Below are positions 1,278-40,438 of a DNA stretch of 40,438 bases, piece after piece. Both the position numbers and the translations under genes were made by a program. The stretch covers positions 1 to 40,438 of IMG/VR virus record IMGVR_UViG_3300046411_000602; one strand, 5' to 3'. This DNA is from a virus. Each line of letters begins with the position of its first letter. The first letter of the stretch is position 1. The notes below the pieces were generated by a model. That model was not told the DNA's origin. It saw only the letters and a program-made list of their open reading frames with translations, and did not search any database.

Positions 1278-1282
1278 TGAGT

Positions 1283-1651
1283 ATGGCAACATTATTCAGA
1301 GGATTCAACACAGTTGACAGGGTTAAGGCACCCTTTACCCTCAATGACGTAGATTTAGTAAAACGTGATTTGTTGAATGAATTTTATACTCGTAAAGGTG
1401 AAAGACTTATGAGACCAAATTACGGTAGCATAGTATGGGACTTACTTATGAACCCAGAAGACACTTTTACCAACGATGAAATCAAAGAAGACATCCAAAG
1501 AATAATCGACAAAGAACAACGAGTAGAATTAAAAAACATAGATATCTTTACATCCGACCATTCTATCAGAGCAGAAGTAGAATTAAAGTACGTTGTACTT
1601 AACAGTGAAGATACATTATATTTAGAATTCACTAGAGAAGAGCAGGTATAA
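1283..1651 (+). CDS. 25: Baseplate wedge subunit gp25-like
   Basis: A 122-residue protein of the gp25/IraD-like (GPW/gp25) family, a sheath-initiating wedge component that sits under the tail sheath in contractile-tail phages. T4 gp25 is 132 residues. Visible landmarks: the central TRKGERLMRPNYGSIVWDLL segment, matching the conserved TRKGSRPFDPEFG region of T4 gp25, and the C-terminal beta part with alternating hydrophobics. It is followed 3 bases later by gp6, its known wedge partner. An in-frame ATG at 1277 would add two residues, but it overlaps the GATAAATA box and could not be in the transcript if that box is the promoter, so 1283 is chosen. There is no Shine-Dalgarno sequence, and the mRNA may be leaderless. 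Confidence 0.9.
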   Translation: MATLFRGFNTVDRVKAPFTLNDVDLVKRDLLNEFYTRKGERLMRPNYGSIVWDLLMNPEDTFTNDEIKEDIQRIIDKEQRVELKNIDIFTSDHSIRAEVELKYVVLNSEDTLYLEFTREEQV

Positions 1652-1654
1652 TAA

Positions 1655-22952: not shown

Positions 22953-22965
22953 AGAGGAAAATTAA

Positions 22966-25068
22966 ATGGCGTATTCAGTAACAACAAACGACGGCGTTAC
23001 AATAAGTGTAGCAGATGAGACTAAAGATAGTAGTTCTCTGTCGCTTACTGTTATTGGTAGGAACGCCACCAACTACGGTCAAAGTATTGTAACAAATACA
23101 ATCCGACACTTAGAAAATTTCGCAAGTAATGTACCACCTGCACCAACATATACGTTGACGGGTCAATTATGGTACAATAAATCAGAAGATAATTTGCGTG
23201 TATATGATGGTGCTACTTGGGGCAGAGCTTCTAAAGTTCCTGTTTCGGCAGCAGAACTAAGTACAGACTTAGTACCAGGTACACAGTATTTTAATTCAAC
23301 AGAAGACAAATTACAAGTTTACGATGGTTCAACTTTTAGAGATGCAGTATTACCAGGTGGTACAGTAACAAGTACATACTCAGGTAACGTTGCAGCAGCA
23401 GGTGGTGCAAACAACTACGGTGCTAAAGTTGAAACTATATTCTTAGAAAGTACAGAAGCAACGGCCAAAATGGTTCCGGTAATAGCACTTAAATACGTTA
23501 GTGACGGTGCAAGTTTACCTGGTGAATTAGCAGACTCGGCACATGATAGTGCTGGTGCAACAGTGATGGCAGTGTTCTCAGATAGATCATTTACACTTGC
23601 TCAAACAGATCCACATTATGCAACATTATCAGACAGTGGTAGTTTTGGTGCAACATTTACAAAAGGTATGAATCTACGTGCTGATTATACAGACAGCACT
23701 ATATCATTATCAGACAAATCAGAATGGGCTGACAAGGCAAATGCAATTTATACAGGTTCTGTTATTCCTGCAGGAGATATTATTCATGTAGGTTCAACAA
23801 ACTGGGTTCCAAGTGGAACAGTTAGCACAAACTATACATTAGGTACTTCATCAAATAAATTTGGTGATTTACACGTTGACAAGATGGCATTAGGTAGTGC
23901 CGGTGGTACAACAGAGACTCTTGCAATAGTAGGCACAGTTAACATAGGTACTTCAAGCAATCCAGTTAACGATATATATGCAAACAACGTATATGTTGAC
24001 GGCACATTAGATTTTGATGGTGTTAACTCTTTAACAAACCTAGAAAGTGCAGACATTGATGACGTAACATTAACAAGCGGCACAATATCAAGCTCTCCTA
24101 GTGGAGCCACTGACATTGCTAATAAGAGCTACGTTGATTCACAAGCATCAACAGCGACAGCGGCAGCAATTACATTAGTGCCAACTAACACTAGCACATC
24201 AACACATTTTCCAATATTTGTTGATAGTGGCTCAGGCAACGAACAAGCAAGAACAGACACAGGATTTACTTATGTTCCTACTTCAGAAACATTGCACACA
24301 ACAATATTTGATGGGACAACAGGTAACTTCAGTGGAACAGTTGAAGCAAACAGATTCACAGACGGCACATTAAGTATAGAAAATGGTGATATTACATCTG
24401 GCAGTGATGCTACATTTAGCAGTACTGTTACTGCAGGCACACTCACAGACGGATCTTTAAGTATTAACTCCGGAAGTATTACAGGTGGTGCAAGTGCAAC
24501 GTTTAGTGGTACAGTACAAGCATCTGCTCACACAGGTGTAAGTGCAACATTAAGCGGTACAGTACAAGCAGGTTCATTTACTGACGGATCAATGTCAATA
24601 ACAGGTGGTGCAATTACAAGTGCATCAACAGGTAACTTCAGTGGTACGGTTACTGCTAACTTATTTGACGGTGTTGCTAGTACAGCAAAATATGCTGACT
24701 TGGCTGAGAAATATGTTGCAGACGCAGACTATGAGCCAGGCACTGTGGTAAGAATAGGCGGCGAAGAAGAAATCACAATGACCACAGAGCATGCCGATGA
24801 AGAAGTATTTGGCGTTATCTCTACAGATCCTGCATACTTAATGAACAGCGACATAGAAGGATTACCAGTAGCATTGCAAGGACGAGTTCCTGTAAAAGTA
24901 ATTGGTAAAGTCCGTAAGGGCGAAAGATTAATTTCTAGTGACGTACCAGGCGTTGCATGGGGTGTGGCGGATGCTACAGCACCTATAGAAGCAGTAATTG
25001 GTAGAGCATTAGAGGACAAGGATGACGGCGATCAAGGTATGATAGAAGCAGTTATCGGAGTCAAGTAG
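22966..25068 (+). CDS. Tail-fibre-like protein with C-terminal processing-type domain, 700 aa
   Basis: The N-terminus (IVTNTIRHLENFASNVPPAP...LTGQLWYNKSEDNLRVYDG) is the attachment segment seen in tail fibres of marine T4-like phages. The middle is Ser/Thr/Gly-rich fibre sequence with 29-residue repeats at 24328-24672 (listed separately). The end (STAKYADLAEKYVADADYEPGTVV...VFGVISTDP...GRVPVKVIGKVRKGERLISS) resembles the C-terminal domain shared by many T4-like cyanophage fibre proteins, related to peptidase-G2/autoproteolytic fibre tips. I infer a role in trimer folding or tip formation and cannot show proteolysis. Start: ATG with GAGGA 9 bases upstream, 13 bases after the previous gene. Such fibres bind host surface receptors. 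Confidence 0.75.
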   Translation: MAYSVTTNDGVTISVADETKDSSSLSLTVIGRNATNYGQSIVTNTIRHLENFASNVPPAPTYTLTGQLWYNKSEDNLRVYDGATWGRASKVPVSAAELSTDLVPGTQYFNSTEDKLQVYDGSTFRDAVLPGGTVTSTYSGNVAAAGGANNYGAKVETIFLESTEATAKMVPVIALKYVSDGASLPGELADSAHDSAGATVMAVFSDRSFTLAQTDPHYATLSDSGSFGATFTKGMNLRADYTDSTISLSDKSEWADKANAIYTGSVIPAGDIIHVGSTNWVPSGTVSTNYTLGTSSNKFGDLHVDKMALGSAGGTTETLAIVGTVNIGTSSNPVNDIYANNVYVDGTLDFDGVNSLTNLESADIDDVTLTSGTISSSPSGATDIANKSYVDSQASTATAAAITLVPTNTSTSTHFPIFVDSGSGNEQARTDTGFTYVPTSETLHTTIFDGTTGNFSGTVEANRFTDGTLSIENGDITSGSDATFSSTVTAGTLTDGSLSINSGSITGGASATFSGTVQASAHTGVSATLSGTVQAGSFTDGSMSITGGAITSASTGNFSGTVTANLFDGVASTAKYADLAEKYVADADYEPGTVVRIGGEEEITMTTEHADEEVFGVISTDPAYLMNSDIEGLPVALQGRVPVKVIGKVRKGERLISSDVPGVAWGVADATAPIEAVIGRALEDKDDGDQGMIEAVIGVK
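24328..24672 (+). repeat. 29-residue (87-bp) tandem repeats within the tail-fibre gene
   Basis: Units start at 24328, 24415, 24502, 24550 and 24637, each opening with FSGTV or a close variant (FSSTV, LSGTV), followed by TDGxxSIxxGxIT. Units 1, 2 and 4 are exactly 29 residues. Unit 3 is a 16-residue remnant lacking 13 residues, and unit 5 breaks off into the C-terminal domain. The units probably build repeating shaft segments. Confidence 0.85.
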
Positions 25069-25075
25069 ATAAATA
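25068..25075 (+). promoter_or_regulatory. Late promoter box GATAAATA
   Basis: GATAAATA begins with the last base of the tail-fibre stop codon (25066-25068) and lies 26 bases before the ATG at 25102. That leaves a short leader containing the AGGAGA ribosome site, the ordinary arrangement. Confidence 0.7.
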
Positions 25076-25101
25076 CAATTATATATTAGTAGGAGATACA
25101 T

Positions 25102-26070
25102 ATGGCATCAGGAAGTTCAGTAGCACTATCAGGTGGTACAACAATGACACAAGTTGTCACCGGTGACGTTATCGATGACGCAGATTACAATAACATGCGA
25201 GACAATATTGAAAAACTGTTTGGAGAAGCACCGATTGTCGGCCTAGGAACATTTACTGCTTCTAACACTTACGGCTGGAATCAAGGTGGTTCAGGTGTTA
25301 GTGCTGTATCAGCAGGCGAAGTTGTTGACGCATCAAGTACAAACGGTTTTAAAGACTTACAAGACGACGTACAGGCAATGTGTGCATTCTTAGGAGTGTC
25401 TGTTAGAACTGGCGTAGGAAGTGATGTTACTAGCAGTGATACAATCACAGGAGCAACATGGTCTAACACTATGTTAAACATTCAAGATTGCTGGAACAAC
25501 AGATTTTCACCAGCAAGTAGAACAGCAGCAACGGACGGTAGCACAACAAGAACAGCGGCATGGACAAATACATTAACACAAGAAACTTCATTTGCATTCA
25601 GCAGTCAAGGTGCAGCCAGAGCATATTTTAATGCAGGTGGCGGTGTAGGTGTTGGTTCAAGCAGAAGTGGTGGTTCAAGTCACACTCAGAATACGCAGTG
25701 GACTAACAAACTAAACGCAATCAGTGACGTTTTCTTATATCATGACACTACATCAGGTAGTGCAGGTACAAGTGCAGGCATAGGATTTTACGAATTAACA
25801 ACAAGTTATCAGCAACTTCTGATTTATTACGGTGGTGCTTCACCATATACATCAGACTATGTTAAAGTAGAAGGGCGTGTTAATAGTGTAAGTGCTCCAA
25901 CTACAGTTTACATAAAAATAACACTGTTAGACGCAGGCGATAACGTACTTGACCAAAATGTAGATGGCACACTAACAATTAGTGCAAGAAGAAATTCACC
26001 AAATGCAAATGGTTCAGGATTTAGTTTTGCTAACCCAAGTGCAACACAAGGTAGCATTGTAGGTACATAA
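25102..26070 (+). CDS. Virion structural / fibre-associated protein, 322 aa
   Basis: Gly, Ser, Thr and Ala-rich protein beginning MASGSSVALSGGTTMTQVVTGDV. It has a short helical part (DADYNNMRDNIEKLFGEAP; later KDLQDDVQAMCAFLG and WSNTMLNIQDCWNNRF) that repeats a pattern of paired helices, a Gly-rich central hinge near residues 175-200, and a beta-rich C-terminal half. The composition and its place as the last gene before the terminator suggest a fibre or whisker-like part; no specific T4 equivalent is recognised. AGGAGA lies 6 bases before the ATG. It is preceded by its own late box and followed by the strong terminator at 26088-26123. Confidence 0.72.
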   Translation: MASGSSVALSGGTTMTQVVTGDVIDDADYNNMRDNIEKLFGEAPIVGLGTFTASNTYGWNQGGSGVSAVSAGEVVDASSTNGFKDLQDDVQAMCAFLGVSVRTGVGSDVTSSDTITGATWSNTMLNIQDCWNNRFSPASRTAATDGSTTRTAAWTNTLTQETSFAFSSQGAARAYFNAGGGVGVGSSRSGGSSHTQNTQWTNKLNAISDVFLYHDTTSGSAGTSAGIGFYELTTSYQQLLIYYGGASPYTSDYVKVEGRVNSVSAPTTVYIKITLLDAGDNVLDQNVDGTLTISARRNSPNANGSGFSFANPSATQGSIVGT

Positions 26071-26087
26071 TAAAAATAACTAACTTT

Positions 26088-26123
26088 AAAAAAGCCAGTA
26101 ATTAGTGTTACTGGCTTTTTTTT
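26088..26123 (+). terminator. Strong intrinsic terminator closing the virion block
   Basis: GCCAGTAA (26094-26101) pairs perfectly with TTACTGGC (26108-26115) around a 6-base loop, preceded by six A and followed by eight T. The A-run and T-run would also let it work on the minus strand. Confidence 0.93.
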
Positions 26124-26125
26124 GG

Positions 26126-26133
26126 ATTAAATA
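26126..26133 (+). promoter_or_regulatory. Late-like promoter box ATTAAATA
   Basis: ATTAAATA lies directly after the terminator T-run and 5 bases before the ATG at 26139. It is a weaker match to GATAAATA but has the same spacing as the leaderless arrangement at gp25. Confidence 0.45.
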
Positions 26134-26138
26134 TAGGT

Positions 26139-26498
26139 ATGAGTACACGACTAACTAAAGCCTTGGAGTTCGCTAACTACAGGGTTACATTAAACAATCA
26201 AACTGCCACATTAAAAGCAAAGACAGAAAACCTGTTGAGCTATAGTATTAATGGTGGCACTTTTCAAATAGACATTCCCTTGCTCACTTTTTGCAAACAA
26301 CTTTTAGATGAAAAACATGACGAAGTTGTTCTCTTAGATGTCTATAATAATCCTATCAAAGTAGAAGTAAAAGACTTCTATGAAGAAATACAAAGTCGAT
26401 ATTTTGAAGTAACGAATGATTATTATGCAGAATATGAGAAATTGAGAAAAGCAAGAAAAGTACATAAGGTATTAGATCTCAATGAAAAAGGAGAATAG
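26139..26498 (+). CDS. Conserved phage protein of unknown function, 119 aa
   Basis: Begins MSTRLTKALEFANYRVTLNN. Predicted beta-rich N-terminal half (YRVTLNNQTATLKAKTENLLSY), then a long charged helix from about residue 75 to the end with many Glu, Lys and Tyr. It has no membrane segment. It seems to be the first gene of the accessory operon and overlaps the glycosyltransferase by 17 bases. No Shine-Dalgarno sequence precedes the ATG. Function unknown; the ordered but motif-free sequence suggests a small accessory or structural factor. Confidence 0.75.
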   Translation: MSTRLTKALEFANYRVTLNNQTATLKAKTENLLSYSINGGTFQIDIPLLTFCKQLLDEKHDEVVLLDVYNNPIKVEVKDFYEEIQSRYFEVTNDYYAEYEKLRKARKVHKVLDLNEKGE

Positions 26499-27381
26499 TC
26501 GCGGCATATTAATGTTCGCACACAACAACGATGAAATAGATTATTTCAGATTGGCTGTTGTGAATGCTCTTCTTATACAAAAACACTTAGGTATCAAAGA
26601 CATCACTGTGGTAACAGATTCCCACAGTCTCAGTTATGCACAAGAACAAATGGGTGAAGATGTTGTTAATAAAGCAATAAACAATATTGTTTTAAATGAA
26701 AAAGACAGAAACTTCAAACGTGCAAATATTCGTGTGTACAAAGATACAAGCCATACAGCAAAGAATTTAAGTTTTTATAATGTAAACAGATGCGATGCAT
26801 ATGACATTTCACCATACGATGAAACAATCCTCATTGATGCAGATTATTTAATACTCAGCGACACACTAAATCAATGTTGGGGACACAACGAAGAACTGAT
26901 GATGAACTGGAAATGGCAGGACGTGATGTTCGAAAGAAAGTTTGAAAGTTTAGATAGGCTCAATGACTTAGGCATAACTATGTATTGGGCAACGGTTGTG
27001 TATTTTAAAAAGACACCATACGCAGAAAGTTTCTTTAACACTGTGAAGCATGTAAAAGACAATAGTCAATTTTACAGAGACTTATATCAGTGGAAGGGAA
27101 AACTTTACAGAAACGATTACAGTTTCAGTGTTGCGGCCCATTCTATGAGTGGATTTGTAGACAAGGGTATAGCACAACTGCCTACAACATTATACAAAAC
27201 ATTTGACACAGACGACGTACACAGTGCTTTAAGCAATGACACACTATTACTACTATTAGAAAAACCCAAAAGCCCAGGAGACTTCATGTTAACAAAATGG
27301 AGTGGTGTAGATTTACATGTAATGAACAAATGGGCCATAAATAGAATAAGCAACGGACTAATGGAGTACATGGATGCCTAG
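26482..27381 (+). CDS. GT-A-fold glycosyltransferase-like protein, 299 aa
   Basis: Has the layout of GT-A nucleotide-sugar transferases: an N-terminal strand (ILMFAHNND), a donor-site strand (DITVVTDS), and the metal-binding DxD motif in DETILIDADY (D119, D121), followed by an acceptor-side part with conserved Trp/Lys. It is a clear paralogue of the gene at 28409: both start with a [SK]G-xx-Ax-NN-xx-xDY pattern and share SPYDETxxxDxD. It probably transfers a sugar from a nucleotide donor in the cytoplasm; donor and acceptor are unknown. The ATG at 26482 overlaps the previous gene, and the alignment with the paralogue supports a start this far upstream. The stop overlaps the next gene by 8 bases. 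Confidence 0.75.
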   Translation: MKKENSRGILMFAHNNDEIDYFRLAVVNALLIQKHLGIKDITVVTDSHSLSYAQEQMGEDVVNKAINNIVLNEKDRNFKRANIRVYKDTSHTAKNLSFYNVNRCDAYDISPYDETILIDADYLILSDTLNQCWGHNEELMMNWKWQDVMFERKFESLDRLNDLGITMYWATVVYFKKTPYAESFFNTVKHVKDNSQFYRDLYQWKGKLYRNDYSFSVAAHSMSGFVDKGIAQLPTTLYKTFDTDDVHSALSNDTLLLLLEKPKSPGDFMLTKWSGVDLHVMNKWAINRISNGLMEYMDA

Positions 27382-28170: not shown

Positions 28171-28412
28171 ACTGGTGGGATAAATTTATGGAATGGAGTT
28201 GGCAGAGAGAAGCCAACTTACAATTCGAAGAAGCACAAAAAGAAAATAAAGCAATTGACATTATGAAAGATGATGTTGATCCTAATGAAGTTACAATCGA
28301 AAATGCTTATAAGACTAGATGGATTTGGTATCACACAATTTTAGCAATTGGTATTTTCTTTACTAACATTTTATTAATAGCAATTTTAATAATATTAGCA
28401 ATTAAATTATGA
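28167..28412 (+). CDS. Small C-terminal-anchored membrane protein, 81 aa
   Basis: The N-terminal 50 residues are charged and aromatic (MNWWDKFMEWSWQREANLQF), and the last 28 form one membrane helix (WYHTILAIGIFFTNILLIAI). This gives a tail-anchored layout with the hydrophilic part probably in the cytoplasm. It overlaps by 4 bases at both ends (ATGA with the upstream membrane protein and ATGA with the glycosyltransferase). A role in placing the glycosyltransferase at the membrane is possible but rests on order alone. Confidence 0.68.
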   Translation: MNWWDKFMEWSWQREANLQFEEAQKENKAIDIMKDDVDPNEVTIENAYKTRWIWYHTILAIGIFFTNILLIAILIILAIKL

Positions 28413-29272
28413 GCAAAGGTTATATAGTCATAGCACAAAACAATGGGTCTGTTGATTACTTAGAGCAGGCTTATGCACTAGCACTAAACTTAAAACTAAC
28501 ACAAAGTAAAGTTAGTGATTTATCAGTGTGTGTAGACGAAAAAACCAAACAATTGATAACTTCAAAACACAAACAAGTATTCGATCAGATTATTGATATT
28601 CCTTGGAATGATGATGCAAAAGGCACATCATGGAAAATAAACAACAAATGGAAGTATTACTACATGTCACCATATGATGAAACAGTAATACTTGACACAG
28701 ACATGATCTTTCCAACAGACGTTAGCCATTGGTGGGATATGTTAAAAGAGCGTGATGTATGGGCAACCACAAATGTACTCACTTATAGAGGTGATATTGT
28801 TAGCAGTGATTACTATAGAAAGTATTTTGTTAAGAATGAATTACCCAATGTTTATACAGCATTCTTTTACTTCAAGAAAAGTGAATTAGCAACTGAGCTG
28901 TTTACAATGATTGAAGTCATATTCCAGCATTGGCAACGCATGTTCTACAAGTATATGCCACAAGGTAAACCTGCATGGTTAAGTGGTGACGTAGCATACG
29001 CTCTTGCTATGCAACTTCTTAATGTTGAACACGAGTGTACAAAACCGTTAACAAAAAGTTTTCCTACTTTTGTACACATGAAAAGTCATATACAAGATAT
29101 ACCAGAGACAATGGTAAATGACAATTGGACAGAATCGCTGCCAACATATTATGATTCATACAACAATTTTAAAATTGGAAACTTTCAGCAACTAATGCCA
29201 TTCCATTATGTAGAAAAAGATTGGATGGATGATAGCAAAATAAAGCAGATGGAGAAGGATCTTGGAATTTAA
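28409..29272 (+). CDS. GT-A-fold glycosyltransferase-like protein, 287 aa
   Basis: Paralogue of the protein at 26482. Shared features: N-terminal YIVIAQNNGSVDYLEQAYAL, the acidic donor strand SVCVDEKT, and SPYDETVILDTDM with the DxD metal site (D96, D98). The C-terminal half is rich in aromatic and Lys residues (a possible acceptor site) and contains FVHMKSHIQD. Likely a cytoplasmic nucleotide-sugar transferase; sugar and acceptor are unknown. The start overlaps the 81-residue membrane gene as ATGA, and the stop overlaps a 59-residue gene by 11 bases. Two such paralogues around a cluster of small genes suggest duplication within the island. Confidence 0.75.
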   Translation: MSKGYIVIAQNNGSVDYLEQAYALALNLKLTQSKVSDLSVCVDEKTKQLITSKHKQVFDQIIDIPWNDDAKGTSWKINNKWKYYYMSPYDETVILDTDMIFPTDVSHWWDMLKERDVWATTNVLTYRGDIVSSDYYRKYFVKNELPNVYTAFFYFKKSELATELFTMIEVIFQHWQRMFYKYMPQGKPAWLSGDVAYALAMQLLNVEHECTKPLTKSFPTFVHMKSHIQDIPETMVNDNWTESLPTYYDSYNNFKIGNFQQLMPFHYVEKDWMDDSKIKQMEKDLGI

Positions 29273-30763: not shown

Positions 30764-31780
30764 ATGGCTAAGATAGATGTCACAGAGCTAGACATTTTTT
30801 ACATTTCTTATGACGAACCCAACTGTGAAGAACATTGGGCTGATCTACTAAACAAAGTTCCTTGGGCAAAACGTGTACACGGTGTTAAAGGGTTTGATGC
30901 CGCACACAAAACAGCCGCAAATCAATCAGAGACAGAACGTTTTATCACTGTAGACGGTGATAATATTGTTATGGATGACTTTTTTGAACAAACATTAGAT
31001 GTACCTGATACAGATTTAGATGGTAATAATATATCAGAAAGTATTTTTAGTTGGAATGCTAAAAACTTACTTAACGGTCTAGTGTATGGTAACGGCGGAC
31101 TAAAGTGTTGGCCTACTGAATATACCAAAACAATTAACACACACGAAGCCGCAACTGACGGCGAGGGTATGGAGTTTTGTTGGAAACTTAACTATATACA
31201 ACTTAATGACACGTTCTCAGAAGTACATCAAACTGCTTCACCTTTCCAGGCCTTTAGAGCAGGTTTTAGAGAAGGAGTTAAAATGAGTCTAGATCAAGGC
31301 GAGTGGGTAGAACCTGATCTTTTTCTTGACAAAATATGGTATGGCAATTATAATAGACTACAAACGTGGTGCAACATTGGTACAGATGTTCCTAATGGCT
31401 TGTGGGCATTGTATGGAGCCAGACTAGGTTGTGAGATGACTGTTCTAACAAAATGGGACACTAACTTAATATCAGACTACGATTGGTTTAAAAACTTCTT
31501 TAACAATGAAGTTGCTCCACGTTTTGATGGATTGAATGACATGACATGCTCGTACACTAAATTAGAATGGCAACAGGAATTGTTATACAAAGAAGTATGC
31601 AGATTAGGGCATAGGCTCAACGAAGAGATCAACAGTATGATGCTATTTAATCCTAATGAACAAATGTGCAAGTTCTTTAAGAAAACATACGTTAACCCAA
31701 GAAGATGGGGTGCAATGATAAGAGAAAAGCAAATACAAGATTTGCTCGAAAAGGGCATGGCGGAATTAACACAATCATAA
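30764..31780 (+). CDS. Glycosyltransferase-like protein, 338 aa
   Basis: An N-terminal GT-A-like domain: the strand LDIFYISYDEPN, then WAKRVHGVKGFDAAHKTA and the acidic motif RFITVDGDNIV (D64, D66), which has the spacing of a DxD donor-metal site. The rest contains many Trp and Cys residues and an EQMCKFF region. It is not a paralogue of the two shorter glycosyltransferases in this island, since motif context and length differ. It probably adds a sugar, but donor, acceptor and even catalytic activity need proof. AGGAC precedes the ATG. The dehydrogenase-like gene follows after 12 bases, which fits sugar-nucleotide metabolism. Confidence 0.6.
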   Translation: MAKIDVTELDIFYISYDEPNCEEHWADLLNKVPWAKRVHGVKGFDAAHKTAANQSETERFITVDGDNIVMDDFFEQTLDVPDTDLDGNNISESIFSWNAKNLLNGLVYGNGGLKCWPTEYTKTINTHEAATDGEGMEFCWKLNYIQLNDTFSEVHQTASPFQAFRAGFREGVKMSLDQGEWVEPDLFLDKIWYGNYNRLQTWCNIGTDVPNGLWALYGARLGCEMTVLTKWDTNLISDYDWFKNFFNNEVAPRFDGLNDMTCSYTKLEWQQELLYKEVCRLGHRLNEEINSMMLFNPNEQMCKFFKKTYVNPRRWGAMIREKQIQDLLEKGMAELTQS

Positions 31781-31792
31781 AACGGTACGAGG

Positions 31793-32611
31793 GTGAGTCA
31801 GAATAATTTAAAACTAGGAGTAATAGGAGCAGGCTTTGTTGGAGGCAGTGTTATTAATGGTTTTGATAAGAATGTGAATATGTTTGTAGTTGATACAAAA
31901 CTACACCCTGAAAACACAATAGATCAATTAATAGAATTCAAACCAACCATCACATTCATCTGTGTTCCTACACCAAAAGCAATAGGCGACAGTGGCGAAG
32001 TAGACGTCAGCATTGTTAGACAAGTGCTAAGTGATTTGTATGACAGACGCTATTCAGGTATTGCTGTTATTAAAAGTACTATTACACCTAAACACTTAAC
32101 CAGAATGAAAAAAGACTTTGGTGTAAAAATTGTTTACAACCCAGAGTTTCTCACAGAAGCAAATGCACATCAAGACTTTTTAAATCCTAACATGCAGGTA
32201 TTAGGAGGTAAGTGGCGTGACTGTGATACTGTAGAAAAAGCATATAATAGACATAGCAGTGTTAAAGTTGTGCCCACATTCAAAGTAGATTTAATTACAG
32301 CAAGTATGATCAAATACACAATAAACAGTTGGCTTGCAACCAAAGTAACATTTTTTAATGAACTGCATGAATTACACGAAGCAAGTGGTTCAATGTCAGA
32401 TTGGGAATCCTTTACAAAAATGTTATCAAACGATCCTCGTATGGGTAACACTCACATGCAAGTTCCAGGACCAGATGGCAAAAAAGGATTTGGCGGGCAT
32501 TGTTTTCCTAAAGATACAGAAGCATTTCTATATTATGCAAACAAGAAAGGGAAAGATTTAAGTGTTCTCAAAAAAGCAGTAACACAAAACAATAAGACAA
32601 AGGGCCAATAA
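31793..32611 (+). CDS. UDP-glucose/GDP-mannose dehydrogenase-like, short form (272 aa)
   Basis: Has the N-terminal Rossmann domain (GVIGAGFVGG, the GxGxxG nucleotide site), the CVPTP motif, a KSTI and YNPEFLTEANA segment, and the catalytic-site sequence GFGGHCFPKD with Cys at residue 237. Family members oxidise the C6 hydroxyl of a nucleotide-sugar to a carboxylate in two NAD-dependent steps. Usual length is 390-450; this one ends soon after the catalytic Cys, so the C-terminal nucleotide-sugar-binding domain is missing. It may act only with a partner, or on a different substrate. Starts at GTG 31793 with GAGG directly upstream, an unusually tight spacing. It ends 15 bases before the convergent 40-residue gene. 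Confidence 0.8.
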   Translation: MSQNNLKLGVIGAGFVGGSVINGFDKNVNMFVVDTKLHPENTIDQLIEFKPTITFICVPTPKAIGDSGEVDVSIVRQVLSDLYDRRYSGIAVIKSTITPKHLTRMKKDFGVKIVYNPEFLTEANAHQDFLNPNMQVLGGKWRDCDTVEKAYNRHSSVKVVPTFKVDLITASMIKYTINSWLATKVTFFNELHELHEASGSMSDWESFTKMLSNDPRMGNTHMQVPGPDGKKGFGGHCFPKDTEAFLYYANKKGKDLSVLKKAVTQNNKTKGQ

Positions 32612-32903: not shown

Positions 32904-33407
32904 TTATAGGTAATCAATCCACATTGCAAGGGTCAAACGGGTGCCTGACTGGATAGTTTTAACTTTATGAAAACAAGTATTGTTAGTAAACAATACTGCA
33001 CTGCCTTTTTCTAAATCTATTGGGTATCTGTCTAAATACAGTTTACCACCAGTAAATTCATCATTTAATTGAATTATTAATGTGTCATCACATGGGTCTT
33101 GATGTAATGTTGCTTCGTCGCCTTCTTCATATTTAATTATGTACATACGGTCATCATATATTTTAAAAGGCTGACGCATGATTCTTTTTAACTTATCTAG
33201 TATAATGTCAGTAACTGGTAACTCAACTCTCATAGGCAAATATTCTAATCTATACCATACGCCTTCTGGTATATCAACTTTGGTTCTATCTAGCGGAGTA
33301 GTTTCGTTATATGGGGTAGGCTGTGGAATACTACTTAACAATGCATCGCATTCTTCGGCTGATAAAAAATTAGAATGTACACTATATCTAGTAGGCAGTT
33401 TGCTCAT
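32904..33407 (-). CDS. 2-oxoglutarate/Fe(II)-dependent oxygenase, 167 aa
   Basis: Typical double-stranded beta-helix oxygenase of the prolyl-hydroxylase-like group. It has the HxD of the metal triad at H102 and D104 (ATLHQDPCDD), an LNDEFTGGKLYL strand, the distal metal His at H147 (NTCFHKV), and the 2-oxoglutarate-binding Arg at R157 (GTRLTLAMWI), ten residues on. All active-site residues are present, so it is likely active in hydroxylating a protein, peptide or small molecule; the substrate is unknown. It starts at the ATG 33407, 6 bases after the minus-strand box GATAAGTA with no Shine-Dalgarno sequence. It is divergent from the second oxygenase-like gene, with only 56 bases between start codons. 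Confidence 0.88.
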   Translation of the reverse strand: MSKLPTRYSVHSNFLSAEECDALLSSIPQPTPYNETTPLDRTKVDIPEGVWYRLEYLPMRVELPVTDIILDKLKRIMRQPFKIYDDRMYIIKYEEGDEATLHQDPCDDTLIIQLNDEFTGGKLYLDRYPIDLEKGSAVLFTNNTCFHKVKTIQSGTRLTLAMWIDYL

Positions 33408-33421: not shown

Positions 33422-33450
33422 AAGAAGTAATACAAGAGTTTATGATGTTT

Positions 33451-33458
33451 GGTAAATA
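33451..33458 (+). promoter_or_regulatory. Late-like box GGTAAATA for the plus oxygenase-like gene
   Basis: GGTAAATA, one base off GATAAATA, lies 5 bases before the ATG at 33464. Together with 33414-33421 it makes a compact divergent promoter pair. Confidence 0.45.
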
Positions 33459-33463
33459 GATGT

Positions 33464-34186
33464 ATGCACTACTATTTAGAATCTAATGTTGAGTTTATGA
33501 CAAAGGAAATGAAAGATCATTTACGTGAACTTGCAGACAAACATACTGAAAAGTTAGAAGTACAACATCGCCCATGGAAAGAAATTTCGTATGCAGGCGA
33601 ACACGATCTTAGAGAAACACACACTAGAACAGAAGAACTTGTGGGTATCAAAGCAGCAAGGGAATTCAAACGCAGGAAAATATTGTTAGCAAGACATTTT
33701 GGTTATAAAGCAGAAGGCATGAAAGAAATGCAACTACATGCTTATCATATACCAGAAGACATTGCACAAGAACTTAAAAGTAATGCATCAAAGATGTTTG
33801 GTATCGAAGAAGATACAATAGACCCTATATTACAAATTCAAACTGAAGGCAATATACTTTATCCACATTGCGGACATAGTAGAGAGTCTAGCATGTTTTG
33901 TTTAATCGCAGGAGACGATGCAAAAACACAATGGTACGAAGAAACTGAACCATTTCATATATATGAAAATTGGCGTGTACCAGATGCTTCTAAAATAAAA
34001 GAAGTAGAAGAAGCACAATTTAGAATAGGACCTTGGTATACATTTAATCATCAACAATGGCATTCAGTTAAAAGGCCAGACAAATCAGTCAAACGAATTA
34101 ACATCAATCTTAATTTTACAGCATTATCATACGCAGACTTAGAGAAGAAACTGTTTGATATGGACGGTGTTGTAGAAAAATCCTAA
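33464..34186 (+). CDS. 2OG-Fe(II) oxygenase-like protein with HxG instead of HxD, 240 aa
   Basis: Aligns with the PHxDxxR-type oxygenases of marine phages. The motif here is YPHCGHSRESS with H135 and R140 in place, but Gly137 stands where the metal-binding Asp should be. The distal His (H200 in QQWHSVKRP) and an Arg eleven residues later (R211 in VKRININLNF) are present. In Fe(II)/2OG halogenases the Asp is replaced by Ala or Gly, which opens a halide site; loss of activity or a different metal chemistry is the other explanation. The N-terminal 110 residues are helical and charged, with no recognised domain. I use the ATG at 33464; a TTG at 33449 lies in the promoter box. No Shine-Dalgarno sequence is seen. 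A weak terminator follows. Confidence 0.7.
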   Translation: MHYYLESNVEFMTKEMKDHLRELADKHTEKLEVQHRPWKEISYAGEHDLRETHTRTEELVGIKAAREFKRRKILLARHFGYKAEGMKEMQLHAYHIPEDIAQELKSNASKMFGIEEDTIDPILQIQTEGNILYPHCGHSRESSMFCLIAGDDAKTQWYEETEPFHIYENWRVPDASKIKEVEEAQFRIGPWYTFNHQQWHSVKRPDKSVKRININLNFTALSYADLEKKLFDMDGVVEKS

Positions 34187-34287: not shown

Positions 34288-35616
34288 ATGGCCTCGATCG
34301 GATTTGTAGGCGTAGGTAAGTTAGGTCAAGCCTGTGCTGAAATGGTCGCCGAGGTTCATCAAGTTGTAGGATATGACGTTAATCCAGTAGAGCCTGAAAA
34401 CTTTACAATGGTTGACAATATGGAAGATGCTGTAAAAGGACAAGACATTGTTTTTGTTGCAGTACCTACTCCACATGATCCTCAATACGATGGAAAGGCA
34501 CCAACCAGCCATTTGCCAAACAAGGACTTCGACTATTCTATAGTCCGGCAAGTTCTTAGCCAGGTGAATGCTGTAGCGACCAAAGACCAATTAGTAGTAC
34601 TGATATCAACAGTACTGCCAGGAACAGTTAGACGAGAATTCGTCAATCTTATCCCAAATGCACGATTCGTGTATAACCCTTATCTTATTGCAATGGGCAC
34701 TGTAAAGTGGGACATGGTAAACCCAGAGATGGTTATGATCGGAACAGAAGATGGAGATGAGAGCGGAGACGCAAAAGAGTTGATTGACTTTTACAAAACA
34801 ATAATGCAAAATGAGCCACGTTACATAGTCGGCACATGGGATGAATGTGAATGTATTAAAGTCTTTTATAACACGTTTATATCTGCTAAGGTATCTTTAG
34901 TAAATATGATACAAGACGTTGCCGAAAAGCAAGGTAACATCAATGCAGAAGTTGTATGTGATGCTCTTGCTACAAGTGATAGACGTATTATGGGACCAGG
35001 ATATATGAAGCCAGGTATGGGCGATGGCGGTGCTTGTCACCCCAGAGATAATATTGCGTTACGTTGGATGGCTGAAGAACTAGACTTAGGTTACGATTTA
35101 TTTGATGCAGTAATGGAAAGTAGAGAAGTTCAGGCAGAGAACATGGCCAACAAATTAATGGAACTTGCAGGAAATGAACATCCAACTTTTGGATTAGTAC
35201 CTGAGTTGCCAATTGTTATTGTTGGTAAAGCATATAAACCTCTAGTAGAATACGAAGCAGGCTCTAGTAGCATGTTAGTAGGACATTATATTAGTAAAGC
35301 AGGATTTGATTTGCATTACTACGATGAGCAAACAAATGATATACCAGATGAAGAAGTATTAGATAGTTCAGCAGTATATTTGTTAGCACATAACCCAGAA
35401 GTAACTTACGGCGAACAATTAGATACAGTGCCGGGTTGGTATGATGATCACAATGTTTCTGATTGTGACACAGCACTAACAGTTAAAACTGGTAATGGTT
35501 CAGAATTAAATTTTGCACCAGGCAGTATAGTGGTTGATCCTTGGAGAAAGACGCCAGCAATATTAGATGTTAGAGTTGTACATTATGGCAACACAAGGAA
35601 AGAAGCACTTAGATAG
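34288..35616 (+). CDS. UDP-glucose/GDP-mannose dehydrogenase family protein, 442 aa
   Basis: Full-length member of the nucleotide-sugar dehydrogenase family. N-terminal Rossmann domain with GFVGVGKLGQ (GxGxxG) and the VAVPTP motif, a STVLPGTVRREF segment, a central helical domain, the catalytic-site region GDGGACHPRD with Cys at residue 250, and a C-terminal nucleotide-sugar-binding domain (IVIVGKAYKPLVEYEAGSSS). The catalytic sequence differs from the usual GFGGxCFPKD (Asp for Phe, His for Phe, Arg for Lys), so the substrate may not be UDP-glucose. It should make a uronic-acid-type nucleotide sugar in the cytoplasm. Start: ATG with TTAGGAG upstream, under its own late promoter; the first radical SAM gene follows after 7 bases. 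Confidence 0.85.
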   Translation: MASIGFVGVGKLGQACAEMVAEVHQVVGYDVNPVEPENFTMVDNMEDAVKGQDIVFVAVPTPHDPQYDGKAPTSHLPNKDFDYSIVRQVLSQVNAVATKDQLVVLISTVLPGTVRREFVNLIPNARFVYNPYLIAMGTVKWDMVNPEMVMIGTEDGDESGDAKELIDFYKTIMQNEPRYIVGTWDECECIKVFYNTFISAKVSLVNMIQDVAEKQGNINAEVVCDALATSDRRIMGPGYMKPGMGDGGACHPRDNIALRWMAEELDLGYDLFDAVMESREVQAENMANKLMELAGNEHPTFGLVPELPIVIVGKAYKPLVEYEAGSSSMLVGHYISKAGFDLHYYDEQTNDIPDEEVLDSSAVYLLAHNPEVTYGEQLDTVPGWYDDHNVSDCDTALTVKTGNGSELNFAPGSIVVDPWRKTPAILDVRVVHYGNTRKEALR

Positions 35617-35623: not shown

Positions 35624-37030
35624 ATGAGCGAACGATTAGAACGCATTAAGACAATTGATGTAATGATGACAGAGGAAGTTAGTCCTACATTCTGTTTGGC
35701 TAAATGGCATCATACAACAATTTACTTACACCGAGGGCAAACACATAGTTGTTATCACCCAAAACCACATGACATTCCTGTACAGGAACTAAAGTGGGAT
35801 CCAAGCGTCTTACATAATACTCCAACAAAAATTGATGAACGTATTCAAATGTTCAATGGCGAACAATGCGAAGGTTGTCAATACTGTTGGAATGTTGAGA
35901 ACATGGGTGAAGACCACGTTAGTGATAGGCACCAACGTAATGCTAGTATTTTCAAGCCGGATCGTTTAGAAGAAATTTTAAACAATCCTCCAGACTTCAA
36001 AGTAAATCCAGAATACATTGAGATTGCATTCAGTAATGAGTGCAATTTCAAATGTGGATACTGTCACCCAATGCATAGTAGTTTGTATCATAAAGAAATT
36101 AAAAAGCATGGACCATATGAAACAGTTAAGAATCACAGAAATGATATTGACTGGTTTGAAGTATATGGTGAAGAAGGAAATCCATATATCGAAGCATGGT
36201 GGAAATGGTGGCCAGAAGTTAGTAAAACGCTAAATATTCTTCGTATAACGGGAGGCGAGCCATTACTGCATAAATCAACATGGGGCATCTTTGAATATTT
36301 AATTGAGAACCCTAGGCCTAGTATTGAGATTAATATTAATACTAACATGGGGTATACTCCGAGACGTATGGAAAAACTAGTTGATGCAGTTACCAGAATG
36401 CGTGACAACAACTCGATTAAAGGATTTAAAATGTTTAGTTCTATGGACACATGGGACAAACGTGCAGAATATTTACGCACAGGACTAGATGTAGAGCTTT
36501 GGGAAAAGAACCAAGACATTTATTTGCGTGGCGTTAAAAGCCATATTACACACATGGTAACTTTTAATATATTAAGTGTTACTAGTTTTATTGACTTTTT
36601 AAAGAAAATTTTAGAATGGAGAAAAACATACGAAGACATTATTCCTAATAATTTAGGCACAGAGGAAAACGTTCGTAAGATAAGATTTGATACTCCATAC
36701 TTGAAAGAGCCTATTCAGTATGATATGCACATACTGCCTAAGGAAGAATTTTTACCCTACTTTGATAAGATATTAGATTTTATCAGAGAGAACGTTGTAG
36801 AAGATGATAGAACAATGTTCAGTGAATTAGAATATGAAAGATTTCGCAGAGTACGTGATTACTTTGCTAACGAACAATATTCAGAAGAACGTATTAAAGA
36901 AGGTCGTGCAGACTTTTATGGTTGGTTCTCAGAATATGATAAAAGAAGAGATGTATCGTTTTTAGAAACTTTTCCAGAGATGGAAAATTTTTGGAACCTA
37001 TGCAAAGAAGAGTATGAAAGACAAAATTGA
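35624..37030 (+). CDS. Twitch-type radical SAM protein 1, 468 aa (divergent member)
   Basis: Radical SAM core with CX3CX2C at C140, C144 and C147 (ECNFKCGYCHP), which binds the [4Fe-4S] cluster that cleaves S-adenosylmethionine, and the GGEP motif near residue 210 (RITGGEPLLHK). Before the core, cysteines at 24, 43, 82, 85 and 88 (FCLAKWHH, HSCYHP, CEGCQYC) look like an N-terminal auxiliary-cluster (twitch) domain, as in the N_Twi_rSAM family. The N-terminal motif differs from the next three (no LPWxHxxxxP), and the protein is longer, so it is a separate subfamily. Known relatives modify peptides or proteins; the substrate here is unknown. AGGTGA precedes the ATG. It overlaps the next gene by 17 bases. 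Confidence 0.85.
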   Translation: MSERLERIKTIDVMMTEEVSPTFCLAKWHHTTIYLHRGQTHSCYHPKPHDIPVQELKWDPSVLHNTPTKIDERIQMFNGEQCEGCQYCWNVENMGEDHVSDRHQRNASIFKPDRLEEILNNPPDFKVNPEYIEIAFSNECNFKCGYCHPMHSSLYHKEIKKHGPYETVKNHRNDIDWFEVYGEEGNPYIEAWWKWWPEVSKTLNILRITGGEPLLHKSTWGIFEYLIENPRPSIEININTNMGYTPRRMEKLVDAVTRMRDNNSIKGFKMFSSMDTWDKRAEYLRTGLDVELWEKNQDIYLRGVKSHITHMVTFNILSVTSFIDFLKKILEWRKTYEDIIPNNLGTEENVRKIRFDTPYLKEPIQYDMHILPKEEFLPYFDKILDFIRENVVEDDRTMFSELEYERFRRVRDYFANEQYSEERIKEGRADFYGWFSEYDKRRDVSFLETFPEMENFWNLCKEEYERQN

Positions 37031-38306
37031 TATTACACAAATAGACTTGCCTGCTATCAAAGAAAAATCTTTGTGTACATTGCCTTGGCTACACATACAC
37101 GTTACACCAGATCAAAATATTATGCCTTGCTGTATTGCAAACATGGAAAATGTTGATGATGTTAGAAGCACCATGGACGATAGCATAGAAGATTGGATGA
37201 ACTCCGATGCTATGAAAAAGATGAGACTTGATATGCTTAATGGTATACAGCCTAATGCATGTAAGACTTGTTATCATCAAGAAACAAGTATGGAAAGTTT
37301 TAGAAAAACTGCTCTACGAGAATACGATGAGTTTACATTAGAAAATCTTGCAAACACAAATACAGATGGCAGTATAGATAATTTTAAAATGCGTTATTTA
37401 GATATGCGTTTTAGTAACCTATGTAATATGAAATGTAGAACATGTGGTAGTGCATATAGTTCTTTGTGGGAAATAGAAGATGCCAAATACGGACATCATT
37501 TTAATGATCCTATAAATGAAATCAACAAACCTACAGTGTTTGAAGAATTGAAAGACCAGATACCTAACTTGAAGAAAGCATATTTTGCAGGCGGCGAGCC
37601 TTTAATCACAGAAGATCATTATATATTATTAGAAGAGATGATACGCAGAGGCAAAACAGATATATTCTTATCATATAATACTAACATAAGCAAGTTACGT
37701 TTTAAAGATAAAGATTTAACAAATTTGTGGAAACAGTTTAAACATAAAGTTCAGGTATATGCAAGTTTAGATCATTATGGTGCAAAAGCAGAATATATAA
37801 GACATGGAACAAAGTGGAACGAAGTAGAGCAAAATTACAAAACACTTTGGGAGTCAGACGCGGCACAACTAAACATAACAACAAGTGTGTCACTATTTAA
37901 TTGGCCTTCATTAACAGAATTTATAGAATATCTAAACAACGAAGGTGTTGCACCTTGGACAATAAACAATAAAGGTGCATGGCAAATTAATCCTATATAT
38001 GGACCAGAAGAATTTAGTTTCCAGGCATTGCCAGAGCAGTTTAAAAATGAAATTATAGAAGAACAAATATTATATATGCACAAACTTAAAAAGATGACTT
38101 TGACAACTAAGAATGAAAACATGGGTCATCAAATAGAATTGCTAATGAGTCAACTACACTCATTAGGTAAACTTGCTAAAACAAAAAATAGTTGGGAAGA
38201 GCAAAAATTAAAATTTAGAACCGAAGTAAGAAAAATAGATAGTAGACGCAAAGAAGATTTTAGTACAACGTTTCCAGAACTCGCGAGATTAATACATGAA
38301 GAGTGA
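37014..38306 (+). CDS. Twitch-type radical SAM protein 2, 430 aa
   Basis: N-terminal auxiliary-cluster domain with C21 (LCTLPWLHIHVTP), C39-C40 (MPCC) and C83/C86 (CKTC), the pattern of twitch-domain radical SAM proteins. The core follows with CX3CX2C at C137, C141 and C144 (LCNMKCRTCG) and AYFAGGEPLI. The C-terminal part has SLDHYG and a helical tail ending TFPELARLIHEE. It is a close paralogue of proteins 3 and 4. It overlaps protein 1 by 17 bases and protein 3 by 11, so the array is translated as a unit. Reaction and substrate are not known. Confidence 0.88.
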   Translation: MKDKIDITQIDLPAIKEKSLCTLPWLHIHVTPDQNIMPCCIANMENVDDVRSTMDDSIEDWMNSDAMKKMRLDMLNGIQPNACKTCYHQETSMESFRKTALREYDEFTLENLANTNTDGSIDNFKMRYLDMRFSNLCNMKCRTCGSAYSSLWEIEDAKYGHHFNDPINEINKPTVFEELKDQIPNLKKAYFAGGEPLITEDHYILLEEMIRRGKTDIFLSYNTNISKLRFKDKDLTNLWKQFKHKVQVYASLDHYGAKAEYIRHGTKWNEVEQNYKTLWESDAAQLNITTSVSLFNWPSLTEFIEYLNNEGVAPWTINNKGAWQINPIYGPEEFSFQALPEQFKNEIIEEQILYMHKLKKMTLTTKNENMGHQIELLMSQLHSLGKLAKTKNSWEEQKLKFRTEVRKIDSRRKEDFSTTFPELARLIHEE

Positions 38307-39543
38307 TTACATCAAAATAACAGATGTAGAAAAAGACTTCTTGTTAAACAAGTCTAAAACGTTCTGTATGTACCCATGGACGCATTTGAATGCTACACCT
38401 TTGGGTAATATATTTCCTTGCTGTAGTAACGACTATACTGATCCTATGGGTAACACAGAAGACATGACTCTCAAAGAAGCATTCAATAGTGATTACATGA
38501 AAAACTTGAGACTTGATATGCTGAATGAAAAGAAGCATGATATATGTAATTTTTGTTATGCACATGAAGATGCTGGCCCTCATAGTTTTAGAAAGTATAG
38601 TATAGAACACTTCGGTAAGTACTTCGATGAAAGCATTGGCATGACCCACGAAGATGGCACAGTTGATGAAATGAAAATGCGTTACTTTGATATACGTTTT
38701 TCAAATATATGTAACTTTAAATGTAGAAGTTGCGGTAGTGAATTTAGTAGCCAGTGGGCATTAGAAGATAAAAAAACTTGGAACCCGGATGGCCCTGTTG
38801 TAATACACGTAGATGAAGAGAGAGGAGGTATACTTGGGGAAATACTAGAACAGATAGAACATATAGATATCGCTTACTTTGCAGGTGGTGAACCATTGAT
38901 CACACCTGAACATTATATTATACTAGAGGAGTTAATAAGACTTGGCAAAACAGATACAGTATTAAGATATAACACAAACGCCAGTACTGTTTCGTACAAG
39001 GATAAAGACATTTTTGATTTGTGGAAACATTTTAGCAAAGTAGAACTGAGCTGTAGTATTGATCATTTTGGTCAAAGAGCGGAATTAATGAGAAATGGTA
39101 CTGACTGGGGAAGAGTAGAAAGAAACCTCAAGACATTTAGGAGTTTAGATTATGTTTCATTTCAAATGAACACAGTGTTAAGTATAATGAACTATTATAC
39201 ATTGCACGAGTTCTTTGAATATATGAGTGGGGTTGGCTTGTTTGATTACGACAAAGATTTTTATAATAGTTTGTACTTAGCAGCCAATCCTAAACATTAT
39301 TGTGCTCAGGCATTGCCTAAGCATATGAAAGAGATAGCAGCTGGTAAACTTATGAGCGGCTATAAAGAAGACAGAGCAGTGGACCAACTAATTAAAAGTG
39401 GAGTTGAGTTTGCCGCATTAAATGACACATGGGACGACGTCAAAAAAGAGTTCTTCCATATGACATATAGGTTAAATAAACTCAGAGGAGAAGACTTTTT
39501 TAAAGTTTTTCCTGAGTTAGCAGAATTACAGGACATGGAATGA
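38296..39543 (+). CDS. Twitch-type radical SAM protein 3, 415 aa
   Basis: Same layout as protein 2: C24 (FCMYPWTHLNATP), C42-C43 (FPCC), C84/C87 (CNFC), then the core CX3CX2C at C139, C143 and C146 (ICNFKCRSCG), AYFAGGEPLI and SIDHFGQRAE. The C-terminal helices end VFPELAELQDME, the same FPELA element as protein 2, indicating duplication. It overlaps protein 2 by 11 bases and protein 4 by 4 (ATGA). All cluster ligands are intact, so activity is likely. Function unknown beyond the radical SAM class. Confidence 0.88.
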   Translation: MKSDYIKITDVEKDFLLNKSKTFCMYPWTHLNATPLGNIFPCCSNDYTDPMGNTEDMTLKEAFNSDYMKNLRLDMLNEKKHDICNFCYAHEDAGPHSFRKYSIEHFGKYFDESIGMTHEDGTVDEMKMRYFDIRFSNICNFKCRSCGSEFSSQWALEDKKTWNPDGPVVIHVDEERGGILGEILEQIEHIDIAYFAGGEPLITPEHYIILEELIRLGKTDTVLRYNTNASTVSYKDKDIFDLWKHFSKVELSCSIDHFGQRAELMRNGTDWGRVERNLKTFRSLDYVSFQMNTVLSIMNYYTLHEFFEYMSGVGLFDYDKDFYNSLYLAANPKHYCAQALPKHMKEIAAGKLMSGYKEDRAVDQLIKSGVEFAALNDTWDDVKKEFFHMTYRLNKLRGEDFFKVFPELAELQDME

Positions 39544-40438
39544 CAGATACAATAGATGCTGTAAACATATTAGAAAACGGAGATCCGATTAAGGCTATCG
39601 CTGATAGTAAGCATTTCTGTATTCTACCTTGGATACATCTCCATGCGTGGCCTGATGATCGTGTAATGCCTTGTTGTATTGCAGACAGTGCCAAGCCAGT
39701 TGCCGAATATCAACCTGGTATGGACATTATGGACATAATGAATTCAGATGAATATAAGAACATGAGAAAGTTAATGTTGGCAGATGAACCTTATTCTCCT
39801 TGCCAACGATGTTATGATTTAGAAAAAGTAGGCACATGGTCATTGCGTATCAGTCAAAATACTCAGCAAACTAACAGAGAACGTAGTGCTGAGAATGTTG
39901 AAGAAAACTTACAAATGCTTGCCGACACTAAAGAAGATGGTAGTATAGACGAGTTTAAAATGAAGTACATGGATATACGTTTTAGTAATTTATGTAACTT
40001 TAAGTGTCGTAGTTGTGGACCAGGTTGTTCAAATTTATGGGGCGAAGAAAAAATTAAATTAGTAGACGATGGTGTATGGATTAACCGCAAAGGCAGAGAC
40101 ACATTGATGAGTGTTAATGCAGATGGCAGCTTTATGGAAAATTTAAAGCCATACTTGAAAGATGTACAAGAAGTTTATTTTGCAGGTGGTGAGATATTAA
40201 TCCACCCAGAGCATTACGAATGTTTAGATTACTGGATTGAAAATGGAATGGCAGACAAAGTTAGATTAAACTATACAACTAACATGAGTAAAATAAAATA
40301 TCTTGACAAAGTTAAAGGTGAACGTAATTTATTTGACTTATGGAAACACTTTCCTGATATTGAAATGTGGGCAAGTATAGATGCTATTGGTAAAGCCGGC
40401 GATGTTATTCGTAAAGGATTTAGATGGGAACGTGTGAA
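39540..40438 (+). CDS. Twitch-type radical SAM protein 4, 3' end outside window
   Basis: Starts at ATG overlapping the stop of protein 3 (ATGA) and is open to the window end, about 299 residues seen. C27 (FCILPWIHLHAWP), C45-C46 (MPCC), a CQRC pair, then the core CX3CX2C at C152, C156 and C159 (LCNFKCRSCG). The SAM-binding motif reads FAGGEILI, with Ile in place of the usual Pro of GGEP. SIDAIGKAGDVIRKG replaces the SIDHFGQRAE element of protein 3. Otherwise it resembles proteins 2 and 3, and further array members may lie beyond the window. Confidence 0.87.
   Translation, partial: MTDTIDAVNILENGDPIKAIADSKHFCILPWIHLHAWPDDRVMPCCIADSAKPVAEYQPGMDIMDIMNSDEYKNMRKLMLADEPYSPCQRCYDLEKVGTWSLRISQNTQQTNRERSAENVEENLQMLADTKEDGSIDEFKMKYMDIRFSNLCNFKCRSCGPGCSNLWGEEKIKLVDDGVWINRKGRDTLMSVNADGSFMENLKPYLKDVQEVYFAGGEILIHPEHYECLDYWIENGMADKVRLNYTTNMSKIKYLDKVKGERNLFDLWKHFPDIEMWASIDAIGKAGDVIRKGFRWERV

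Follow-up and report, generated by a model that had tools for sequence, protein, structure and literature searches.

Ordered arrays of N-twitch radical SAM genes beside phage tail-fibre genes: a candidate glycan-tailoring cassette

Introduction

What would a phage do with four consecutive radical S-adenosylmethionine (SAM) enzymes encoded beyond its tail-fibre genes? The question is raised by IMG/VR virus record IMGVR_UViG_3300046411_000602, of which we analysed positions 1 to 40,438 (40,438 nucleotides, hereafter the window). A preliminary description had read the four genes at its end as an array performing a multi-step or multi-substrate modification during infection, and had rated them a candidate for an undescribed system. 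The array proved to be genuine, and it recurs in a conserved order in many uncultured aquatic phages. We think it fairly probable that it forms the radical-chemistry part of a phage glycan biosynthesis cassette, with multi-step tailoring for tail fibres or the host envelope; its product is probably a sugar coat of an unusual kind, carried by the phage or by its host.

Four N-twitch radical SAM genes in tandem

The array consists of the following genes, labelled by the slots defined in the next section:

35624..37030, plus strand: member 1, slot W1; N-twitch radical SAM protein, 468 aa; NF033640, 296 bits
37014..38306, plus strand: member 2, slot W2/3; N-twitch radical SAM protein, 430 aa; NF033640, 349 bits; Pfam SPASM, 25.0 bits, residues 21-87
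38296..39543, plus strand: member 3, slot W2/3; N-twitch radical SAM protein, 415 aa; NF033640, 366 bits; Pfam Radical_SAM and N-terminal SPASM above cut-off
39540..40436, plus strand: member 4, slot W4; N-twitch radical SAM protein, 299 aa, truncated by the window end; NF033640, 258 bits over 258 of 398 positions

All four proteins exceeded the curated cut-off (170 bits) of the NCBIfam model NF033640 (N_Twi_rSAM), the first check that had been proposed for them, with full or near-full profile coverage and E-values of 1e-76 to 1e-109, so a chance match is no issue. The open reading frames confirm that consecutive genes overlap by 17, 11 and 4 bases. The core CX3CX2C motif is intact in every member (in order CNFKCGYC, CNMKCRTC, CNFKCRSC and CNFKCRSC), and four N-terminal cysteines are invariant (C21, C40, C83 and C86 in member 2), as the preliminary description had seen. 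Pfam SPASM matched residues 21-92 of members 2-4 above its cut-off, and this auxiliary domain precedes the radical domain. By score, core motif and N-terminal auxiliary domain, members 1-4 belong to N_Twi_rSAM, and two [4Fe-4S] clusters and SAM cleavage are predicted for them.

Members 2-4 are 40-42% identical to one another, which agrees with their being duplicates, but ancient ones. Member 1 shares 24% identity with member 2 and falls into a clade of its own that groups with slot R1 of other phages, consistent with the distinct subfamily first suggested. The suspicion that the array continues past the window was borne out in its best relative, locus L005 (80-95% identical to members 1-4), which has a full fourth member of 447 aa followed by a fifth, single-domain radical SAM protein. 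Further downstream in L005 lie a cobalamin-type radical SAM gene and an amidinotransferase gene.

Orthologous slots in a conserved order

A search with member 3 recovered 73 related IMG/VR loci, each with 3-7 N-twitch genes save for a few truncated ones. Gene clustering gave a recurrent order of tail module, C0 (a protein preceding the array), R1, R2, R3, R4, R5, C5 and C6, where R1-R5 are N-twitch slots. We built a FastTree phylogeny with local supports from 245 N-twitch proteins, 233 of which could be assigned to slots. One phage group contributed 40 (R1), 42 (R2), 41 (R3), 39 (R4) and 35 (R5) proteins, and the window's group 9 (W1), 19 (W2/3) and 8 (W4). Slot clades had local supports of 96-100, and the combined W2/3 group 87. 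Each window member sits with its own orthologues from other phages, and W1 forms its own clade as sister to R1; deep joins are uncertain because the branches are long. Recent tandem duplication is ruled out, since the slots are orthologous across phages.

The two groups differ in rigidity. A search with C5 found at least 553 IMG/VR loci, and among the best 80 the slots were nearly always filled (R5 in 79, R2 and R3 in 76 each, R4 in 75, and C6 in 71). A search with member 1 found 58 loci; in about 20 of them W2/3, W4 and the single-domain radical SAM protein C16 come after W1, and in others W1 has fewer partners. The R1-R5 type is thus rigid and the window's type more modular. A scan with member 4 returned only its nearest three contigs and one remote match, its patterns being narrow.

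Some N-twitch genes lie outside such arrays. In L351 and L352 a lone W1-type gene stands in an unrelated neighbourhood without other array members, and the contigs of L035, L053, L063 and L166 carry 13-14 N-twitch model matches each, many outside the array, with 12 above the cut-off on the L035 contig.

Across loci, genes overlap at 84% of the array junctions, and 94% of the junctions span 20 bp or less. This packing bears on the idea that the enzymes act directly on a peptide or on a structural protein of the phage and give tail fibres crosslinks, epimers or thioethers, as do the maturases of ribosomally synthesized and post-translationally modified peptides (RiPPs). The array does adjoin tail-fibre genes, peptides are substrates of many SPASM/twitch enzymes, and models of peptide maturases match weakly; a tail protein encoded further away could also serve as substrate. 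However, the packing leaves no room for precursor genes, and a RiPP-type precursor gene beside the enzymes was rejected for the window array, which has no intergenic room for one. The peptide-maturase matches were all far below their cut-offs, and the recurrent neighbours are sugar-type enzymes. Nor did gene clustering of the loci reveal a small gene common to all arrays; the preliminary description had proposed looking for short genes that always co-occur. We therefore regard peptide modification as unlikely, and the virion crosslinks that had been envisaged gained no specific support.

Purifying selection on each enzyme

The core CX3CX2C motif is kept in 245 of 245 tree proteins and the four-cysteine N-terminal pattern in 230 of the 233 slot-assigned proteins, the opposite of the cysteine loss that would have spoken against a functional array. 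In unsaturated comparisons of the window with L005 and L006, the ratio of nonsynonymous to synonymous substitution rates (dN/dS) was 0.02-0.18, with 0.02-0.04 for member 1; across three R1-R5 phages it was 0.03-0.13. Each N-twitch enzyme thus represents an ancient line of orthologues maintained by purifying selection, and cysteine retention together with dN/dS rules out decaying copies. At L013:887-2172 the first array member is broken into three open reading frames, by decay or an assembly error.

The multi-step modification proposed at the outset was upheld in so far as the enzymes are intact, separately maintained and conserved in order. It needs recasting in that the array is only part of a larger cassette with other radical SAM types and sugar-type transferases.

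Sugar-type enzymes around the array

Neighbours are shared across loci, contrary to a random scatter of the genes among phages. After removal of near-identical loci, we compared 116 loci with at least four N-twitch genes with 26 loci with none, and took the enrichments as indications only. Four neighbour families besides C1 stood out: the carbamoyltransferase C6 (75/116 versus 0/26), the amidinotransferase C9 (41/116 versus 0/26), the DegT aminotransferase C28 (29/116 versus 0/26) and C14 (29/116 versus 0/26), which is epimerase-like by sequence inspection only. The assignment of C6 comes from Pfam, with PDB matches to NovN-type enzymes, GdmN and TobZ. An amidinotransferase in L005 (C37) matched inosamine-phosphate amidinotransferase with an E-value of 9e-68. 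C16, C18, C21 and C36 are further radical SAM proteins; C18 has a weak B12-binding match, and its matches to cobalamin-type radical SAM models are below cut-off. C11 is a methylthioadenosine/S-adenosylhomocysteine (MTA/SAH)-type nucleosidase that in L020 and L057 lies between R4 and R5 and overlaps both. This nucleosidase class also clears 5'-deoxyadenosine.

C1 is the commonest neighbour family (111 genes; 93/116 versus 0/26). We had first taken it by eye for a glycosyltransferase, and dropped it as evidence after profile searches gave nothing usable; the label would be a guess. C5 (for example L051:14307-15365, 352 aa) almost always follows R5 directly. Its structural model is confident (predicted local distance difference test (pLDDT) score 89), yet we found no PDB relative by sequence or fold, and its sequence relatives are unnamed viral proteins only. 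These relatives come from uncultured phages, with one Agrobacterium phage protein added by fold; a presumed link to gp166 of Agrobacterium phage Atu_ph07 was not confirmed by profile comparison. Neither C5 nor the window's C0 had a match among 50,697 GenBank phages at the limits used.

The same transferases could be read differently, as making a small diffusible molecule of aminocyclitol or guanidino type aimed at the host or at competitors. The relative of inosamine-phosphate amidinotransferase, the TobZ/GdmN-like carbamoyltransferase and the DegT aminotransferase all resemble antibiotic pathways, and the top PDB match of member 3 was BtrN, the twitch radical SAM enzyme of butirosin synthesis, at an insignificant E-value of 0.084. 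Against this, we recognised no exporter or resistance gene among the nameable recurrent neighbour families, the neighbours in an independent Vibrio phage are glycosyltransferases, and a late structural position better suits a surface or virion product. A diffusible product thus seems to us quite improbable.

The array in the phage structural region

Upstream of the array, the window carries these features:

1277..5806, plus strand: T4-like baseplate genes gp25 and gp6 (PF04965; phrog_10646, 1052 bits)
5815-22278: single open reading frame of 5487 codons, adjoining the gp25/gp6 block downstream
22314..26498, plus strand: tail-fibre module C12, C8, C3, C7 (phrog_11259, phrog_6427, phrog_19602, tail fiber), its order conserved across loci
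26482..27381, plus strand: C2 protein, first copy, of a two-copy family of the tail-fibre module (54 loci; phrog_1903, weak)
28409..29272, plus strand: C2 protein, second copy (phrog_1903, E 4e-9, a family without assigned function)
30764..31780, plus strand: C0 protein, before the first radical SAM gene in most loci (59 loci); AlphaFold pLDDT 84.5
31793..32611, plus strand: short UDP-glucose dehydrogenase homologue, 272 aa; PF03721 and PF00984 only, without the UDP-binding C-terminal domain
32904..33407, minus strand: 2-oxoglutarate-Fe(II) oxygenase family protein (PF13640, 33.9 bits)
33449..34186, plus strand: 245-aa protein, no family above cut-off in Pfam, PHROGs and NCBIfam scans
34288..35616, plus strand: UDP-glucose/GDP-mannose dehydrogenase family protein (UGD, C13; PF00984, 68 bits; PF03721, 54 bits; phrog_9148, 331 bits)

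The window comes from a large tailed phage that is T4-like by its gp25 and gp6 sequences. Its gp6 (1383 aa) is nearest to PA5oct-type jumbo phages, with Atu_ph07 and others next; no identity exceeds 39%, and gp6 lends no support to membership in the pelagimyophages. The 5487-codon reading frame is probably a giant baseplate protein in the T4 gp7 position. The window contains no tRNA genes that might hint at a host.

As in T4-like host recognition clusters, a variable cassette follows the tail module in the structural region. UGD ends 7 bp before member 1. It lies directly 5' of W1 in 7 of the 58 W1 loci, and it overlaps another N-twitch gene in L016. A 273-aa form of the short UDP-glucose dehydrogenase homologue recurs in L006. 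Top matches of the C0 model among PDB folds were mostly glycosyltransferases and sugar nucleotidyltransferases, though the matches are weak (best E 0.0075), and on this predicted structure a GT-A-like fold is probable. C17 is a relative of C0. A search with C0 found 80 loci, of which 30 lack flanking N-twitch genes; neither C0 nor the tail module is thus restricted to the array.

The position also bears on a role in anti-defence or in nucleotide or DNA modification, by viperin-like chemistry or hypermodified bases. Viperin models matched weakly (22-50 bits), and carbamoyltransferases of the broad family that includes C6 can modify bases. Viperin identity was rejected, as the window proteins reached at most 26 bits against a cut-off of 180 (NF038283). 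The genes adjoin tail fibres, not replication genes, and UGD and amidinotransferases are not base-modification enzymes. We hold such a role to be very unlikely.

Relatives in cultured phages and bacterial genomes

The nearest cultured systems that we found are in two Vibrio phages. In K566, two genes matching Pfam GT8 and two GT4-like ones are interspersed among five N-twitch genes. In nt-1, a single small gene separates the only N-twitch gene (132 bits) from that of a relative of K566's GT4-like protein, and PagP lies nearby. Atu_ph07 has the same tail-module families C12 and C8 followed by radical SAM genes (gp165, gp168 and gp171; L318:16909-23070), but these are not of the N-twitch type. 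The words 'radical SAM' are absent from the text of its genome paper.

In 79 loci from bacterial genomes, N-twitch genes were scattered and mostly single; we found no equivalent array there and no support for a bacterial origin of the array. In one Bacteroidetes genome (L105), three N-twitch genes stand with relatives of epimerases and carbamoyltransferases. Three of the 79 loci (L079, L098 and L099), from contigs assigned to Rhodobacteraceae and Rickettsiales metagenome-assembled genomes, contain the phage tail module, C0 and radical SAM genes, and look like phage contigs binned into bacterial assemblies.

Relation to described systems

The array enzymes share a four-cysteine auxiliary domain and the core CX3CX2C with BtrN and other twitch enzymes acting on sugars; residues 18-87 of member 3 align with the BtrN twitch region (E 0.08, not significant). 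They differ in domain order. SPASM/twitch domains are described as C-terminal extensions (PMC9012708), whereas the array twitch domain lies at residues ~20-90, N-terminal to the radical domain. The N_Twi_rSAM model itself does not include ordered multi-slot arrays.

Radical SAM-rich T4-like phages are already in print (PMC5332604, PMC7029224, PMC7678222). In the pelagimyophage host recognition cluster, a variable island of the structural region by the tail fibres carries UDP-glucose dehydrogenase and radical SAM cassettes, mentioned in passing without order, slots or function (PMC7029224); the window differs in its gp6, closest to that of jumbo phages. The T4-like marine virus TARA_ERS488813_N000010 has 12 radical SAM genes and Fe-S assembly genes including paaD (PMC5332604), a description that recalls the single contigs found here with up to 14 N-twitch matches, up to 12 of them above cut-off. 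It was discussed as an Fe-S cluster theme, with gene order and sugar context not analysed (PMC5332604). Lake Baikal virus VP_139, also T4-like, has radical SAM genes with a methionine adenosyltransferase and an MTA/SAH nucleosidase (PMC7678222), companions also present in some R1-R5 loci, and these genes may belong to the same system as the array. For these reasons 'undescribed' needs qualifying. We found no description of ordered slots in the literature searched, and what is new is the system and how we read it, rather than the enzyme family.

VP_139 was read as pyrroloquinoline quinone (PQQ) and methyl-cycle support for methylotrophs (PMC7678222), and ahbD is listed as a viral gene, globally conserved (PMC7288430) and with 261 Baltic viral cases (PMC9301287). 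Such reports would favour host-metabolism genes that strengthen heme (AhbD), PQQ or other cofactor synthesis in infected cells, with radical SAM, SAM synthetase and nucleosidase genes serving PQQ or the SAM cycle. However, the AhbD model TIGR04545 (cut-off 500 bits) gave 19 and 31 bits on two relatives and did not list the window's four proteins at E 0.001, so heme synthase identity was rejected. Multiple orthologous slots and sugar-type neighbours also fit heme synthesis poorly. We give this explanation hardly any credence, and some viral ahbD annotations may instead be N-twitch proteins.

A proposed glycan-tailoring pathway

Glycan tailoring is the reading we prefer. It draws on family membership with intact cysteines, the fixed slot order and the low dN/dS; on the position after the tail-fibre module of a T4-like structural region; on the UGD gene close upstream of member 1 and the co-occurring carbamoyl-, amidino- and aminotransferases; and on the glycosyltransferase context in K566 and nt-1, the L105 neighbours and the overlapping junctions.

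One possible pathway starts with UDP-glucose dehydrogenase supplying UDP-hexuronate. Each radical SAM enzyme would cleave SAM to abstract a single hydrogen atom from its substrate, be it a sugar, a nucleotide sugar or a lipid-linked glycan, with the N-terminal [4Fe-4S] twitch cluster relaying an electron, as proposed for BtrN. The outcome would be oxidation, epimerisation or deoxygenation at successive positions, perhaps one step per slot. Amidino-, carbamoyl- and aminotransferases would decorate the sugar further, and the glycosyltransferase-like C0, perhaps with C2, would attach the glycan to tail fibres or the host envelope. In phages that encode them, SAM synthetase and MTA/SAH-type nucleosidase would sustain the SAM reactions. 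Placement with tail genes suggests a late virion product and PagP beside the Vibrio homologue an envelope target; we make no choice between the two. The phage would likely gain by a change in receptor binding, by a shield around the virion or by the exclusion of superinfecting phages.

Several observations weigh against this pathway. We found no N-twitch member with an established substrate or product. A glycosyltransferase stands beside N-twitch genes by Pfam in K566 (GT8), but in the window's type the case is the weak fold similarity of C0; C2 was not identified by Pfam or PHROGs, leaving its glycosyltransferase nature unconfirmed, and 44 members of C1 gave nothing usable in Pfam, PHROGs or PDB profile searches. 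The K566 and nt-1 enzymes are ~20-26% identical to the array enzymes, and three of the five in K566, together with the one in nt-1, fall below the N_Twi_rSAM cut-off. Most bacterial N-twitch loci have mixed neighbourhoods with no obvious glycan cluster. The enrichment p-values are inflated, because the loci are related and were gathered by different queries, and the nucleosidase C11 (10 versus 0), the SAM synthetase C15 (6) and the Fe-S assembly protein C20 (3) occurred in radical SAM-rich loci only, in numbers that are not significant.

A more far-reaching version, which we put forward tentatively and would not ourselves expect to hold in full, is a complete ordered radical assembly line of four to six radical SAM steps plus amidino-, carbamoyl- and aminotransfer. 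It would make a sugar novel to phages and their hosts, displayed on the virion or envelope, with ahbD, metK, nucleosidase and paaD as its pieces.

If glycan tailoring is correct, a single system, conserved across at least 553 IMG/VR loci, would devote much coding space to radical sugar chemistry. Scattered reports of radical SAM, SAM-cycle and Fe-S genes in T4-like viruses would then describe one pathway, and caution would be due in reading such viral genes as heme or PQQ metabolism. The slots would also offer enzymologists about five ordered, uncharacterised radical SAM reactions.

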